The position numbers and the translations under genes are program-made. From the NCBI GenBank assembly GCA_002068015.1, contig MVRV01000189.1:1-59129 (forward strand): a stretch of 59,129 bases of DNA, written 5' to 3'. Shown piece after piece: positions 2,677 through 42,419 of this stretch; position 1 is the first letter of the stretch; each line of letters begins with the position of its first letter. The notes below the pieces were generated by a model. That model was not told the origin of the DNA, did no database searches, and saw nothing but the letters and a program-made list of their open reading frames with translations. This DNA comes from Smithella sp. PtaU1.Bin162 (GTDB lineage: Bacteria; Desulfobacterota; Syntrophia; Syntrophales; Smithellaceae).

Positions 2677-3144
2677 TTACCCGATCCTGCGGGCGACGAT
2701 AATTGTGCCCCTTACGCTGAAGACGATTTCGCCTTTGAGGTTGGTCAGCTCTCCTTTGAGCTTCAAAAAGCCACGGTCTGCTTTGCTTGCCGAAGGTCTA
2801 AGCTCTAAAACGGTAAATTTTCCGGAAAGAGTGTCTCCGGGGCGCACCGGTCGGAGAAAGAGCACTTCATCCATGCCGGGTGATCCCATGCCTCTTACCT
2901 TGCTGATGAAAGCGTCGACCATCAGGCGCGAACAGATCGCTGCCGTGTGCCAGCCGCTGGCTATCAGCCCTCCCCAGAGCGGTCGAGCTTTTTCGTCGCT
3001 CAAATGAAAATCCTGAGGATCGTATTTACGGGCAAAATCAATAATTTCTTCCCGGGAAACGGTTGCCGGACCGCCTTCAAAAAGCCGTCCTTCCCGGATA
3101 TCCTCAAAATAAAGTTTTTCTTCGTTTTTTACTGCAGTGGTCAT
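2677..3144 (-). CDS. MaoC-like acyl-CoA dehydratase/hydratase
   Basis: A 155-residue hot-dog-fold protein of the MaoC/R-specific enoyl-CoA hydratase type. The stretch YFEDIREGRLFEGG near the N-terminus, followed by FARKYDPQDFHLSDEKA and GLIASGWHTAA (about residues 40-75), is the family signature; D46 and H51 in the DPQDFH segment are at the place of the catalytic Asp/His pair. The family hydrates trans-2-enoyl-CoA or related thioesters. With the acyl-CoA synthetase nearby (5.1-6.9 kb) it fits fatty- or aromatic-acid metabolism, but no operon links them and the substrate is unknown. Confidence 0.85.
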   Translation of the reverse strand: MTTAVKNEEKLYFEDIREGRLFEGGPATVSREEIIDFARKYDPQDFHLSDEKARPLWGGLIASGWHTAAICSRLMVDAFISKVRGMGSPGMDEVLFLRPVRPGDTLSGKFTVLELRPSASKADRGFLKLKGELTNLKGEIVFSVRGTIIVARRIG

Positions 3145-33732: not shown

Positions 33733-33786
33733 CAAAGGCCGCTGCAAAAGAGGTAACTTTTCGGGCAACAGGTCGTTAAGTTATTG

Positions 33787-33997
33787 TAATGAACGACCCT
33801 GCCGCAAGCAGCGGGGTATCATACCGATTCTGCCTCAATCTATTCGTCCCAAGGGGCGGTGAATATGACCCGCTGGATCCCGGATAGCTCAGCCTGCTGG
33901 GCTTCGCCCTGCATCCGCCGGGTTTTACTTTCGGGATCAATTCCACTAACGCTTCAAACTGCACTTCGCTTGTTTTCAGCGAGTGTCATTGATTTAA
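33787..33997 (+). repeat. 211-bp interspersed repeat, copy B
   Basis: Very similar to copy C and, inverted, to copy A. It runs from TAATGAACGACCC to GTGTCATTGATTTAA. It contains the hairpin-forming CTGCCGCAAGCAGCGGGG and the open frame of about 60 codons (33776-33964, minus) that is also open in copy C but broken in copy A. It sits in a 596-bp non-genic stretch between DUF35 and the next gene. The rest of that stretch has the MITE-like element and nothing else I can name. Confidence 0.88.
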
Positions 33998-36819: not shown

Positions 36820-36854
36820 AGGCGGAAGCGTTTTGCTTTATTGGTTTTAATATC

Positions 36855-37065
36855 TAATGAGCGACCCTGCCGCAAGCAGCGGGGTATCATACCGCTTCTG
36901 ACTCAATCTATTCGTCCCAAGGGGCGGTGAATATGACCCGCTGGATCCCGGATAGTTCAGCCTACTGGGCTTCGCCCTGCATCCGCCGGGTTTTACTTTC
37001 GGGACCAATTCCACTAACGCTTCAAACTGCACTTCGCTTGTTTGCAGCGAGTGTCATTGATTTAA
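36855..37065 (+). repeat. 211-bp interspersed repeat, copy C
   Basis: Same orientation as copy B, same length, with roughly 5% substitution from it. The end that carries TAATGAGCGACCC is 36 bp from the start codon of the 89-residue gene on the minus strand, just as copy A's equivalent end abuts the gene at 14090. The other end is followed by an AT-rich gap and the hairpin at 37196. Confidence 0.88.
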
Positions 37066-37237: not shown

Positions 37238-37381
37238 TTACTGATCTTTTTTCGGTTTTTTCTTGTCCTCGACCGGACAAGCCTCCTTCATTCAGGTGGA
37301 TATGCCGAGGCGCGGCAGTAACCAGGCCTGCAGAAAAAACCACCCGGCAATGATCAAAAGAAAAATCAAAAGCTCACTCAT
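37238..37381 (-). CDS. Small membrane selenoprotein, UGA codon at position 30
   Basis: A 47-residue protein read from the ATG at 37381 (AAAGGTG 8 bp upstream), in which codon 30 is TGA (37292-37294) and the frame then continues to a TAA. Residues 4-25 are one hydrophobic helix (LLIFLLIIAGWFFLQAWLLPRL). Then comes GIST, U30, MKEAC with Cys35, and a lysine-rich tail. U30-x4-C35 could be a redox pair. A perfect 7-bp hairpin with a GGTCGA loop lies right after the TGA. The gene follows trxA by 57 bp. I know no named family. If UGA acts as a stop it would be a 29-residue peptide, which the hairpin and the conserved reading frame make less likely. Confidence 0.78.
37262..37281 (-). promoter_or_regulatory. 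Bacterial SECIS element of the small selenoprotein
   Basis: Read on the minus strand, CTTGTCC, loop GGTCGA and GGACAAG form a perfect 7-bp stem-loop. The loop begins 18 nt after the UGA and opens with GGT, as in the E. coli fdhF SECIS bound by SelB. Stem length, loop size and distance all fall within accepted limits for bacterial SECIS. Confidence 0.8.
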
Positions 37382-37438
37382 TTTTTTTCACCTTTCTTTT
37401 ATTGTTTTGGGGAGGCGTATGCTTCTCCCTGTTTTTGC

Positions 37439-37771
37439 TCAGTTTAAATTCCTCTCCAGCAGAGCCGCAAGTTGACTTTTGTTCAAAAGGCCGATTTGTG
37501 TTTCCTGCACCTGGCCGTTTTTAACCAGAAGCAGGGTCGGGATGCTCCGCACGCCGTATTGAGCGGCTGTCGCCGGATTATCATCCACGTTTACTTTAAC
37601 CACTTTTATCCGGTCATGATATTCCACAGCCAGTTCCTCCAGAATCGGGCCGATAGAGCGGCATGGTCCGCACCAGGGTGCCCAGAAATCAACCAGAGTA
37701 GGTTTCCCTTCTTTTAAAACAACCGTGCTGAAATCGCTGTCGCCTGCATGTTTCACAAATTCCGAATTCAT
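37439..37771 (-). CDS. trxA: Thioredoxin
   Basis: A 110-residue thioredoxin with WCGPC in VDFWAPWCGPCRS (about residue 32) and the cis-Pro IPTLLLVK. The ATG at 37771 is chosen because GGAGG lies 9 bp before it and the longer frame to 37813 has no such site. It reduces disulfides in the cytosol. It is divergent from the FNR-type regulator, with an FNR box between, and is followed by the selenoprotein gene. Confidence 0.96.
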   Translation of the reverse strand: MNSEFVKHAGDSDFSTVVLKEGKPTLVDFWAPWCGPCRSIGPILEELAVEYHDRIKVVKVNVDDNPATAAQYGVRSIPTLLLVKNGQVQETQIGLLNKSQLAALLERNLN

Positions 37772-37909: not shown

Positions 37910-38590
37910 ATGGATATCGGAAAAAAGATGCAGGATATAGAACTGTTTTCAGGCGTTTCTTCAGAAAAGATGCGCCTGCTTGCGGCGCAATCGACATATA
38001 AAAAATTTAAACGAGGCGAGATGGTTATCGGCGAGACGGACCCGATCCGGTCGTTTTATGTGGTCGTTGCCGGGCAATTAAAACTCTACCGCAGCTCGGC
38101 GGAAGGCAGGGAACAGACCCTGCAGCTTTTAGGGCCGGGTGATCCGTTCGGTCTGTGTACGGCTTTTGCAACAGATTCTTTTCCGGCTTCCGCCATGGCG
38201 ATCGAGGATACCACCGTCCTTTTAATTCCCGGTACAGTGATTGAGGAGGCAGCCAAACAGGAACCGGCTCTGTTATTGAATATCATCCGGATACTCTCAC
38301 AACGCCTCAAAGACTCGATGAATCTGATTGAATCGCTTTCCCTAAAAGAGCTACCCGGGCGCGTGGCCTCTTTCCTGCGTCACGAGTCGGCCCGCAGCTC
38401 CGGGGATAAAAAAACAACCGTCGAGCTTACCCTTTCCCAGAGGGAAATGGCCAAGATTCTGGGGGCAACACCGGAAGCCCTTTCCCGTGCCTTGAGAAAA
38501 ATGACGAACGACGGTATCATTTCCGCGGCAGGAAGAGTGATTACTATTCTGGATCAAAAAGCGCTCGAAAAACTATCGGAAGGTGAATAA
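37910..38590 (+). CDS. CRP/FNR-family transcriptional regulator
   Basis: A 226-residue regulator: an N-terminal cyclic-nucleotide-binding-type beta-barrel (about 10-125), a dimer helix, and a C-terminal winged helix (SQREMAKILGATPEALSRALR). The recognition helix has E-x-x-S-R (EALSR), which in FNR reads TTGAT half-sites. No N-terminal Cys set for an Fe-S cluster is seen, so it is not a classic FNR; it may bind haem, NO or another effector (Dnr/Dnr-like). The start at 37910 is preferred over the longer frame, since the family begins there. Confidence 0.92.
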   Translation: MDIGKKMQDIELFSGVSSEKMRLLAAQSTYKKFKRGEMVIGETDPIRSFYVVVAGQLKLYRSSAEGREQTLQLLGPGDPFGLCTAFATDSFPASAMAIEDTTVLLIPGTVIEEAAKQEPALLLNIIRILSQRLKDSMNLIESLSLKELPGRVASFLRHESARSSGDKKTTVELTLSQREMAKILGATPEALSRALRKMTNDGIISAAGRVITILDQKALEKLSEGE

Positions 38591-38681: not shown

Positions 38682-41600
38682 CTATTTGACCTGATACAAC
38701 GGATAATCCTTCCCGAAATTAATAATCAGCGGCGTCTGGCTGTGGCCGATTTGTCCGGAAATGTCGGCGGTTGTTTTTTTAGTAAAGGCGCCGAGGCTGA
38801 TAACCGTTACTTCTTTGCTTCCGCCGCCGGCGGCCTGCGGATTATCATTCAACCCGCGAAGCAGCGTATGGGTAAAAAGGCCGTTGCCCTTGTAACCATC
38901 GAGCGCCGTTTGCTTGTCGTTGGCGGAGGCGTAAATATGCAGCCCCATTTTTTTCGCCAGCACGGAAATACGGGCGTCATACAAGCCGCTGACAATGAAA
39001 TCAACACCGCCGGCATGGCAGGTATCAAAGATAAGCAGTTGATGAAGAGATTTTATTTTTTTGGACATCTCGACAATTTCGTTGGAGCTGATCAGGCTTA
39101 AATCGTCTATCTTACCCTGATAGTCATGTGTGAGCATATAATATTGATTGTGCAGTAAAACTCCATGGCCCGCGACAAAAAAGATGAAGCCGTCGCCGGG
39201 CTTGATAAGCTGTGCGAGGGCGTCAATTGCGCCGATGATATTTTTCTTGGAGGCATCATTATCGGCAATCAGCTCTGCATGAATGTTTTCCGGACGATAA
39301 AATCCCGCGGACTGCCGCACCAGCATATTTCGTATATCGCCTGCATCCTTGCGGGCATATTTCAGGTTAATGCTCTGCTCCTGGTATTTATCAATGCCGA
39401 CAGCCAGAATATAAAGATGCGGTTCCTGCGGCGGCAATATTGAGCGGAAGCCGACCGATTTCATGAGGCTTTGCACGGTATTGCTGCCGTTAAAGGCCGT
39501 AACGCTGATTTCATTTTCACCCGGCACGGCGTCTATTTCGCGGCAGGTTTCGTAAACATCTCCTTTGGGATTACTTTTTATCGGGCTTAGCTCAATTTTT
39601 TCCTGAATCTTGATACTGCGCATTTCCGCATAAATTGCTTTGCTGTTTAAAGAAGCGAGCCCCGTCTGCGGAGCTGTTTTCGCGGTATCGCGATAAAACC
39701 CGTCTGATTGAACAAGTTTGCCGTTATGAAACACCCGCACTTCGCCGATGCCGCCGCCTGTATTGCTCACCCGGTAGCAGGCCCGGACGCGGGGCGCCTG
39801 TGCCGGAAAGACGGTACTGTTAAATTGCACTTCCGGCGGTGGATTTTTAATGGCTTCGGCAATTGTCAGGGTGATGAGATCATTAATATCTTCACCTTTT
39901 AACTTGGCGGCAACAATGTCCGGCCGGTAGAAAACATCATAAAACTGATCGATGCCGAAAATGCTGTTGCCCATGCGCAAGCTTAAGTGCTTATGGCCGC
40001 TTTGCGAAGAGTTGTAATAACCTTCGGGGATGATGACCACCCATTCACCGTCGTTAAAACCGATAAAACGCGCCAGTTCACGGCCGGTGGCGACATCCCA
40101 GATTCTGGTTGTTGCATCAAATCCCCCGGAGATAATCCTTTTTTCGTCCGGTGAAAATGACGCCGCATTGACCCAGGCCGAATGACCGGTGAAACTCTTG
40201 ATTTCGCGGCCGGTGGCGATATCCCACAATTTGACCAGATAATCTCCCGAGGCCGACAATATTCTTTTACCGTTGCGGGAAAAAACAACCGAACTGACGG
40301 TTCCCGTATGCCCGGTCAGTGTTTTCAGCTCTTTGCCGGCGGCGACGTCCCACAGGCGGATGGTTCTGTCCAGGCCGCCCGATACTATGTATTTCCCGTC
40401 CGGGGAAAAGGCGGCGGAAAAAATTGCATCCGTGTGACCCTCAAATTTTTTGATTTCCTTTCCCGTTGCCACCTCCCATAGCCTTATAGTGTTGTCTTTT
40501 TTACTCCATGTTCTGCCTCCCGCCGAGAGGGCGTATTTCCCGTCCGGTGAGAACGAAACGGAATTCACGTCGTCTTCGTGCCCGGCGAATCTTTTCAATT
40601 CTTTTCCCGCAGCAATATCCCAGATTTTTACGAGTTTGTCTCCCCCGCCGGAGATAATCAATTTGTTGTCGGGGGAAAATTGTACGGCGTTTTGTCCCAG
40701 GAGAAATTTGGCGTCGATGAAGAATTGTTTAACTTTTCCCGAAGCAGGATCCCAGATAATGATCGCGCCCTTTTCTCCTTCGGCGCGCAAAAGGATACTT
40801 TTCCCGTCGGAAGAAAAAACAGCCGTCTTTACTATGCTCTTCAGATATTCATAGCTTTCCTTTTCCTCCCTGGAATCAACAATCCACCGGAAGCGGGATG
40901 AAGATATTTGCTTGCCTGTTTCCGTATCCCAGAGTTTGATGCTCCTGTCCTCGCTAACGGACAGAGCCCGGGCGTCTGCCGGCGAAAAAGATGCCGCATA
41001 AATCCAGGAGGCTTTGCCGGTAAATGTTTTCAGCTGAATTCCCGTTTTTGCTTCCCATATTTTAATCATCCGGTCCTGGCCGCCGGAGACAATGTATTGA
41101 CCATCGCGGGAAAAAGAGACATCGGTAATCAAAATGGAATGACCGGTAAAATTCAAAATTTCCCTGGCCGAAAAAACATCCCAGAGATGAAAGACGCGGT
41201 TTGTTCCCACCGTCAGGACGCGCCGGCTATCCGGGGAAAAGACCACGCGTGATACATCATCCGGGGCAATGGAAAATGACTGAACTTCACGGCCGGTATT
41301 AGTTTCCCAAACCGTGATATTTGTTTTTTCATTGCCCGCCATGATATATTTGCCGTCCGGGGAGAAAGCGACTGCTTTCGTCCAGCCCGGTTTGCCCTGG
41401 AAAACTCTAATTTCACCGCCTGTTGCCGCATCCCACAGCCGCACGAGGCCATCCTTGGAGGCGGATAAAATATTTTTTTCATCGGGGGAAAGAGTCAGCC
41501 CTGTAACCGCTTCGGCGCTGCCGGCAAGAGTGCGGATTTCCTTTCCCGTTTTGGCATCCCGGATTTTGATGGTCTTATCCGAGCTTGCGGTGGCTAAAAT

Positions 41601-42419
41601 TTTTCCATCGGCTGAAAAGACCGCTCTTTGCACATAATCGTTATGGCCCTTGACCGTCCAGATGGTTGCGCCGGTTTCAAGATTGCGCATTTTCAGTAAG
41701 CCGTTCCATCCGCCGGTGATGAAAAATGCTTCGTCCGGGGAAAAAGCGAAAGTATTGATGTTGTCTTCGGTATCGGAAAAAGATCTTATTTCTTTGTCTG
41801 TTTCCACATCCCAGAGATTAAGAGTTCTGGCTACCGCACTGGAAAGAAGGAGTTTTCCCGAAGGGGAGAAAATTACGCGGCTGACACCGGAAGTATTACC
41901 GGTTTGCACAATTATTTCCGTGTCGTCGGAAATTCTTGTCGGAAAAACTTTTTTGGCAACGGGTGCGGCCGCTTCCGGCATTTTATCTAATCGGCCTGCC
42001 AGAGATAATCTCCGTCCACTGCGCATAACGTCCAGGAAGATACTCTGCCCCGGTTTACTTTCCGCGACATAATTAATGAGATCAGCCGGGGAATTTGCCT
42101 TGTTTCCGCCGACAATGATAATTATATCGTCTTTTTGCAGACCCATCTTTTCGGCAGGGCTGTCTTTTATTACGGAGACAATCCGCAGGCCGCCGGGCGT
42201 GGTAACACTCTCAGGTTGAACAGCTCTCATCCGGCTGCGTACAATAGCGGCTATTTTCGCACTCTTGCTGTCGGGAGAGCCGTCGGCCTGCGCCGCCGAC
42301 ATGCTTTGTACTTCCGCGCCCAGCCAGGCTTTTCCCTGGGCATAAAGAGATTGCGGCAGCAAAATTGATAATAAAATAACGAGCAAAACAAACGATTTAC
42401 CTGCTGATGATTTTGACAC
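38682..42419 (-). CDS. Exported PDZ / 14-blade WD40 / caspase-like protein
   Basis: A 1245-residue protein. Residues 1-27 form a signal peptide ending at YAQ-GK. A PDZ domain (about 90-150; GLRIVSVIKDSPAEKMGLQ with VGGNKANSPADLINY) follows. Then come about 14 WD40 repeats (about 175-800; repeated GH...FSPDGK...IKIWDAATGKE), which fit two seven-blade propellers, a linker of immunoglobulin-like type, and a C-terminal caspase/metacaspase domain (about 985-1245). Its dyad is His1085 (AGHG) and Cys1134 (DTCHAGG). Bacterial caspase-like proteases occur in defence and cell-death systems, but this one should be in the periplasm or outside. No partner gene is evident; SGNH hydrolase and MltB-like genes follow upstream on the same strand. 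Function unknown. Confidence 0.9.
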   Translation of the reverse strand: MSKSSAGKSFVLLVILLSILLPQSLYAQGKAWLGAEVQSMSAAQADGSPDSKSAKIAAIVRSRMRAVQPESVTTPGGLRIVSVIKDSPAEKMGLQKDDIIIIVGGNKANSPADLINYVAESKPGQSIFLDVMRSGRRLSLAGRLDKMPEAAAPVAKKVFPTRISDDTEIIVQTGNTSGVSRVIFSPSGKLLLSSAVARTLNLWDVETDKEIRSFSDTEDNINTFAFSPDEAFFITGGWNGLLKMRNLETGATIWTVKGHNDYVQRAVFSADGKILATASSDKTIKIRDAKTGKEIRTLAGSAEAVTGLTLSPDEKNILSASKDGLVRLWDAATGGEIRVFQGKPGWTKAVAFSPDGKYIMAGNEKTNITVWETNTGREVQSFSIAPDDVSRVVFSPDSRRVLTVGTNRVFHLWDVFSAREILNFTGHSILITDVSFSRDGQYIVSGGQDRMIKIWEAKTGIQLKTFTGKASWIYAASFSPADARALSVSEDRSIKLWDTETGKQISSSRFRWIVDSREEKESYEYLKSIVKTAVFSSDGKSILLRAEGEKGAIIIWDPASGKVKQFFIDAKFLLGQNAVQFSPDNKLIISGGGDKLVKIWDIAAGKELKRFAGHEDDVNSVSFSPDGKYALSAGGRTWSKKDNTIRLWEVATGKEIKKFEGHTDAIFSAAFSPDGKYIVSGGLDRTIRLWDVAAGKELKTLTGHTGTVSSVVFSRNGKRILSASGDYLVKLWDIATGREIKSFTGHSAWVNAASFSPDEKRIISGGFDATTRIWDVATGRELARFIGFNDGEWVVIIPEGYYNSSQSGHKHLSLRMGNSIFGIDQFYDVFYRPDIVAAKLKGEDINDLITLTIAEAIKNPPPEVQFNSTVFPAQAPRVRACYRVSNTGGGIGEVRVFHNGKLVQSDGFYRDTAKTAPQTGLASLNSKAIYAEMRSIKIQEKIELSPIKSNPKGDVYETCREIDAVPGENEISVTAFNGSNTVQSLMKSVGFRSILPPQEPHLYILAVGIDKYQEQSINLKYARKDAGDIRNMLVRQSAGFYRPENIHAELIADNDASKKNIIGAIDALAQLIKPGDGFIFFVAGHGVLLHNQYYMLTHDYQGKIDDLSLISSNEIVEMSKKIKSLHQLLIFDTCHAGGVDFIVSGLYDARISVLAKKMGLHIYASANDKQTALDGYKGNGLFTHTLLRGLNDNPQAAGGGSKEVTVISLGAFTKKTTADISGQIGHSQTPLIINFGKDYPLYQVK

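Follow-up and report, generated by a model that had tools for sequence, protein, structure and literature searches.

A predicted 47-residue membrane selenoprotein encoded beside trxA in Smithella and its family in Desulfobacterota, Planctomycetota and other phyla

Introduction

Directly downstream of the thioredoxin gene trxA of Smithella sp. PtaU1.Bin162 lies a frame of 47 codons that is interrupted by UGA at codon 30. Is this codon an ordinary stop that leaves a 29-residue membrane peptide, or is it read as selenocysteine (Sec), and what would a selenol at the membrane do next to a thioredoxin? A sequence-only reading of the 59,129-nucleotide stretch of DNA analysed here (the window) had proposed a membrane selenoprotein belonging to no named family, which it suggested may carry electrons between thioredoxin and the membrane. 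Here, the locus, its homologues, the structure following the UGA and the gene neighbourhoods were analysed computationally.

Results

A UGA-interrupted membrane protein gene downstream of trxA

The coordinates of the features are collected in Table 1. With UGA translated as U, the minus-strand frame reads MSELLIFLLIIAGWFFLQAWLLPRLGISTUMKEACPVEDKKKPKKDQ. What the sequence-only reading had described here was largely recovered: the UGA at codon 30 of a frame ending in TAA, a ribosome-binding-like site 5' of the ATG, a single membrane helix (one helix in the AlphaFold model), a codirectional trxA upstream at a measured gap of 57 bp, and a neighbouring FNR-type regulator, assigned by Pfam to the CRP/FNR type. 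A scan for sigma-70 promoters gave chance-level matches only. The strong hairpin following the stop codon is terminator-like, without a U run, and was not among the results of a terminator scan of the region. Elsewhere in the window, two stretches (33776–33964 and 36847–37032, the second near the selenoprotein gene) have near-identical translations (MQFEALVEL(I/V)PKVKPGGCRAKPSRL...), which suggests a dispersed DNA repeat, and the minus strand of 38682–42419 encodes a 1245-residue protein for which inspection by eye alone indicated repeats of the WD40 type and an end resembling a caspase (VGIDKY..., AGHG, DTCHAGG).

Table 1. Positions in the window of the predicted selenoprotein gene, its signals and its neighbours.
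Feature	Position	Strand	Basis
Predicted 47-residue selenoprotein gene	37238..37381	minus	ATG (37379-37381) to TAA (37238-37240), UGA at codon 30; homologues support
Ribosome-binding-like site AAGGTG	37389..37394	minus	sequence; 5' of ATG
UGA, predicted selenocysteine 30	37292..37294	minus	conserved in homologues; Cys in Planctomycetota relatives
Codons of single transmembrane helix, residues 2-24	37310..37378	minus	AlphaFold model
Cys35 codon, usual second thiol (U-x4-C)	37277..37279	minus	Cys at U+4 to U+6 in 123/137 loci
SECIS-like hairpin, 7-bp stem, GGUCGA loop	37262..37281	minus	folding, recoding test, bSECIS model
Strong G+C hairpin just 3' of stop codon	37195..37224	minus	fold z = -6.0
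trxA, thioredoxin with WCGPC, start MNSEF	37439..37771	minus	Pfam PF00085, 2e-31
CRP/FNR-type regulator, divergent from trxA	37910..38590	plus	Pfam cNMP_binding and HTH_Crp_2

The UGA is conserved across a widespread family

A protein search of 197 related genomes found the gene in 91, and the strong hits all contained one internal TGA at the same codon. With a profile, the family was detected in 171 of 395 genomes (~43%) spread over the Desulfobacterota, and homologues were present in Planctomycetota, Armatimonadota, Acidobacteriota, Spirochaetota and Calditrichota; carriers in a scan of named genomes included Smithella, other Syntrophaceae, other 'Deltaproteobacteria', Desulfuromonadales and Geobacteraceae. 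Members share the core W-x3-(Q/N)-x-(W/Y)-(L/V/I)-L-P-(R/K)-x-G-(I/V)-x-T-U, usually followed by C at U+5. The Sec codon was UGA in 136 of the 137 distinct loci and a Cys codon in the remaining one (L190, Planctomycetota), and the homologues do not stop at residue 29, an outcome that would have refuted the proposal. Three doubtful loci were left out: L103, a hit with TAG, and L085 and L098, which are truncated. As the loci share ancestry, the family counts cannot be treated as independent tests. Small membrane frames of a sister subfamily (...GWRIPRRGGPGUTSQSCS...; L105 and, at about 2986–3126 on the minus strand, L106) have UGA at the matching place, with GPGU replacing G-x-x-TU, and a related frame in another genome (L104 in G171; ...PRLKPPTSFGCPTU...) has its UGA after an extra Cys.

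The source genome (3.6 Mb, 191 contigs) was checked for the Sec machinery, the absence of which would likewise have counted against the proposal, and was found to encode SelA, SelB (above the NCBIfam cut-off), SelD, whose own gene contains one in-frame UGA, and a tRNA-Sec that has the anticodon UCA. Two tRNA-Sec-like genes with this anticodon were seen (L010 on contig C49 and L012 on contig C183), the second barely above the Rfam score (47.1 vs 47). Among the Desulfobacterota genomes, the family was carried by 165 of the 360 SelA-positive and 6 of the 35 SelA-negative ones (p = 0.001); since SelA is so common in this phylum, the co-occurrence is less telling. The six carriers without a SelA match all had SelB matches, which in one genome (G320) were fragments only, below the cut-off and at least one of them cut by a contig end.

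Planctomycetota carry forms with Cys in place of Sec

In the Planctomycetota, the family was found in 31 of 343 genomes, and the Cys homologues that the sequence-only reading had recommended looking for were present in five of these. Four of the five are single-contig genomes without SelB and the fifth (L190) has SelB, while SelB was detected in 23 of the 26 genomes with UGA forms, the three exceptions being matches on numbered contigs of draft assemblies (Cys or UGA form against SelB presence, Fisher p = 0.005, uncorrected for relatedness). The Cys forms retain T-C-(L/M)-S-G-x-C, and the residues after the codon are therefore conserved as protein. The hairpin region of the Cys forms showed no clear loss of stability (z -1.8 to +0.2, n = 5). 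A further genome, G703, was Cys-type according to the search and was rejected because its sequence reads U (L205).

A SECIS-like hairpin follows the UGA

The hairpin after the UGA (CUUGUCC-GGUCGA-GGACAAG) begins with its stem 11 nt and with its loop 18 nt from the UGA; thus, the perfect 7-bp stem and the GGTCGA loop reported by the sequence-only reading stand, whereas the 18 nt it had given for the beginning of the structure is the distance to the loop. In the SECIS element of E. coli fdhF, a short stem presents GGUC in the apical loop, which lies about 18–24 nt after the UGA. The window hairpin is alike in its short stem, apical GGUC and loop distance and differs in stem sequence, and an Rfam search of the region gave no match. 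The published bSECIS model (PMC13188914) specifies a loop of 3–9 nt, a stem of 4–16 bp, a G in the first two loop positions, a distance of 16–37 nt from the UGA and an MFE <= -7.5. It was satisfied by the window hairpin and by 117 of 135 loci (87%) compared with 21% of synonymous recodings; the other 18 loci missed it, and some Planctomycetota hairpins are weak.

When the sequences were compared with recodings that preserve the peptide and the local codon use, the window hairpin was more stable than all of them (z = -4.4, 0/200), and the 42 nt from the UGA had a mean z of -1.67 over the 135 loci, against -0.37 for the 39 nt before the UGA and -0.09 for random windows in neighbouring ORFs. Within the window's clade, 93% of the cells allowed the stem to pair compared with 33–44% for slid versions, and the third base of a synonymous Ala codon covaries with the opposite Lys/Arg codon, giving CG or UA in 25 of 27 cases, the kind of compensatory change that had been sought. 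The codons used to form the hairpin differ among lineages, and in L035 and L047 one codon is absent and the stem is retained (L035 was folded). The hairpin is hence conserved as a structure, and the refutation that its loss in relatives would have provided did not materialize. The overlap of SECIS and coding constraints leaves only a weak codon-position bias 3' of the UGA.

On these comparative grounds, it is very nearly certain that the UGA is read as selenocysteine, and we regard the product as a true selenoprotein, a prediction without any protein or selenium measurement behind it.

The selenol is predicted to lie at the cytoplasmic face of the membrane

In the AlphaFold model, mean pLDDT was about 90 at the start of the helix and lower in the tail. 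The mean charge is -0.6 on the N-terminal side of the helix and +2.0 on its C-terminal side, and in 133 of 137 loci the residue next to the helix Pro is Lys or Arg, so that, judged by charge, the orientation is most likely N-out, C-in. The selenol would then sit immediately after the helix on the cytoplasmic side of the membrane, facing TrxA. The pair U30-x4-C35 described by the sequence-only reading is present in the window protein and common in the family, but it is not universal: 14 of the 137 loci have no Cys at U+4 to U+6, and the U-C pair is therefore not essential. The tail after Sec evolves fast (N/S 1.3 vs 0.37 before Sec).

Gene neighbourhoods include trxA and, in several Planctomycetota, sulfide oxidation genes

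Neighbouring trxA genes were located by tblastn. At 31 of 137 loci trxA lies directly upstream and codirectional, in 23 of these together with a CRP/FNR gene; these loci are mostly from Syntrophales, with L154 and L164 outside that clade as far as names tell. In addition, trxA lies directly downstream in a non-Syntrophales member of the Desulfobacterota (L102), in a Calditrichota genome (L168) and in a Pirellulales genome (L176). The linkage noted in the window is thus borne out, recurring in three phyla outside Syntrophales and on either side of the gene. Outside Syntrophales, most members are not beside trxA, and most loci have neither trxA nor sulfide genes adjacent.

Several Planctomycetota have the operon TauE, CstB-like persulfide dioxygenase, selenoprotein-family gene and sulfide:quinone oxidoreductase (SQR). 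The MBL-rhodanese gene precedes the family gene by 13–17 bp in L180, L201, L202 and L206 and abuts or overlaps it in L203, and an SQR gene follows in L148, L182, L201, L202, L203 and L206. In L201, the SQR copy has sulfide:quinone oxidoreductase as its top PDB match (430 bits), and the MBL-rhodanese (CstB-like) copy matches PDB 3tp9 and 3r2u, the latter of which we take to be S. aureus CstB. Over 147 loci, SQR hits were found at 8 and CstB-like hits at 8; the window instead has trxA. Genes for TauE/SafE, rhodanese, YeeE or ArsR lie nearby at several Planctomycetota loci, and the ArsR neighbour falls short of the cut-offs for both BigR and CmtR and can therefore be given no ligand. The arrangement is like the S. 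aureus cst operon, tauE-cstA-cstB-sqr with the persulfide-sensing CstR (PMC5480029), except that the published operon lacks a small protein of this kind and has CstR in place of the ArsR-type regulator of the Planctomycetota. Sulf_transp (YeeE/TsuA-like), DUF1641 and CoA-disulfide-reductase-like genes adjoin in two Planctomycetota (L180, 6192–6671, and the L206 operon). Other recurring neighbours encode ferredoxins, a C_GCAxxG_C_C redox protein, ECF sigma factors and RND pumps, and a hybrid-cluster protein gene is also among them. In five Desulfobacterota loci (L132, L147, L158, L163 and L172), an ECF sigma factor gene lies 3' of the family gene, mostly followed by a zinc-finger anti-sigma-like gene, and the gene could there belong to a stress regulon.

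The family was not found among described selenoproteins

Searches of Pfam and NCBIfam (June 2026) with single members and a 48-member alignment gave chance matches to unrelated models only, none of them reaching the curated cut-off, as did a 22-member alignment against NCBIfam. None of the 119 prokaryotic selenoprotein families catalogued in a May 2026 review (PMC13188914) was recognizable as a one-helix membrane protein of 45–60 residues with the motif G-(I/V)-x-T-U-x4-C. With the bacterial selenoproteins catalogued there, the family shares the in-frame UGA, a SECIS-type hairpin 16–37 nt on, the Sec machinery and Cys homologues. No small membrane selenoprotein of this kind was found in openly licensed PMC papers, the only literature searched, and a prior mention is not excluded. 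The statement that no named family exists holds for Pfam, NCBIfam and the 2026 catalogue; we could not find the family described in any of these, subscription literature being outside the scope. The lack of a family model is probably due to genes of 45–60 codons with an internal UGA escaping annotation.

Discussion

We propose that the ribosome would read UGA 30 as selenocysteine by means of SelB, tRNA-Sec and the downstream hairpin, yielding an inner-membrane protein that crosses the membrane once, with a cytoplasmic C-terminal side and a Cys usually five residues past the selenol. In layout only, such a protein resembles eukaryotic SELENOK and SELENOS, small or single-pass proteins of the ER membrane with Sec near the cytosolic C-terminal end; no sequence similarity is claimed. 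The selenol may accept sulfane sulfur, or may reduce a disulfide or persulfide arising from membrane sulfur chemistry. An Se-S bond would form with Cys35, or with a partner where Cys35 is absent, and the selenol would be reset by thioredoxin, whose gene is in the same operon in the window; alternatively, the sulfur could be passed to a persulfide dioxygenase or rhodanese, as may occur in Planctomycetota. On balance, we lean modestly towards a true selenoprotein whose function is that of a redox and sulfur relay anchored in the membrane; evidence supports the UGA decoding (comparative only), the membrane helix, the topology trend and the gene partners, while the chemistry and the partner contacts are inferred.

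Since most members outside Syntrophales are not beside trxA and those of several Planctomycetota have sulfide and persulfide partners, the function is probably wider than that of a trxA accessory. Both contexts are compatible with a thiol or sulfane-sulfur relay that has thioredoxin as its partner, joined by SQR and persulfide dioxygenase at the loci with those genes alongside, the chemistry again being inferred. More tentatively, and as a proposal that could well prove wrong, the membrane selenol may relay sulfane sulfur and electrons between membrane chemistry of the sulfide:quinone type and either thioredoxin or a cytoplasmic persulfide dioxygenase, in a family that spans at least six phyla, is widespread in Desulfobacterota and has gone unnoticed because annotated genes end at the UGA.

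The most serious competitor, which we consider unlikely, is that Sec serves as a reductant of peroxide, disulfide or quinone, an antioxidant or electron relay with thioredoxin as donor and without transfer of sulfane sulfur. The trxA linkage, seen at 31 of 137 loci with further cases in other phyla, the ferredoxin, C_GCAxxG_C_C and hybrid-cluster protein neighbours and the adjoining CRP/FNR regulator are all in keeping with this, but the cst-like sulfide and persulfide operon in Planctomycetota indicates sulfur, and a second Cys or a thioredoxin neighbour is lacking in many members. Binding of a metal or metalloid (Hg, As or Cu) at the membrane to feed efflux pumps appears very improbable: HlyD/RND efflux genes do adjoin several loci and an ArsR regulator is present in some, yet that ArsR has no assignable ligand, its companions are TauE, MBL-rhodanese and YeeE, and no metal ATPase or MerT recurs. 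Slightly less credible still is a selenium-sensing switch, in which translation in the absence of selenium would stop at codon 29 and the main task of the short reading frame would be to regulate the trxA transcript; a small gene in an operon with a strong hairpin after it would suit such a role, but the gene follows trxA rather than preceding it, many loci share no operon with trxA, Cys forms, for which recoding is unnecessary, retain the residues after the UGA, and the protein persists across phyla despite changing surroundings. That the UGA is simply a stop after a 29-residue membrane peptide, for which nothing speaks beyond its being the default reading, can hardly be entertained given that UAA or UAG occurs in 0 of 137 distinct loci, that SelB-less relatives have a Cys codon and that the SECIS-type structure exceeds what coding requires.

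The selenoprotein family favoured here is present in ~43% of the genomes sampled from a major phylum of anaerobes, syntrophs included, and in five other phyla, and its relay function, if correct, would place a Sec step next to thioredoxin as well as next to sulfide and persulfide oxidation. The Planctomycetota offer a natural, directly comparable Sec-to-Cys swap, and a protein of 47 residues brings the role of selenium in the sulfur chemistry of the membrane within reach of experiment.
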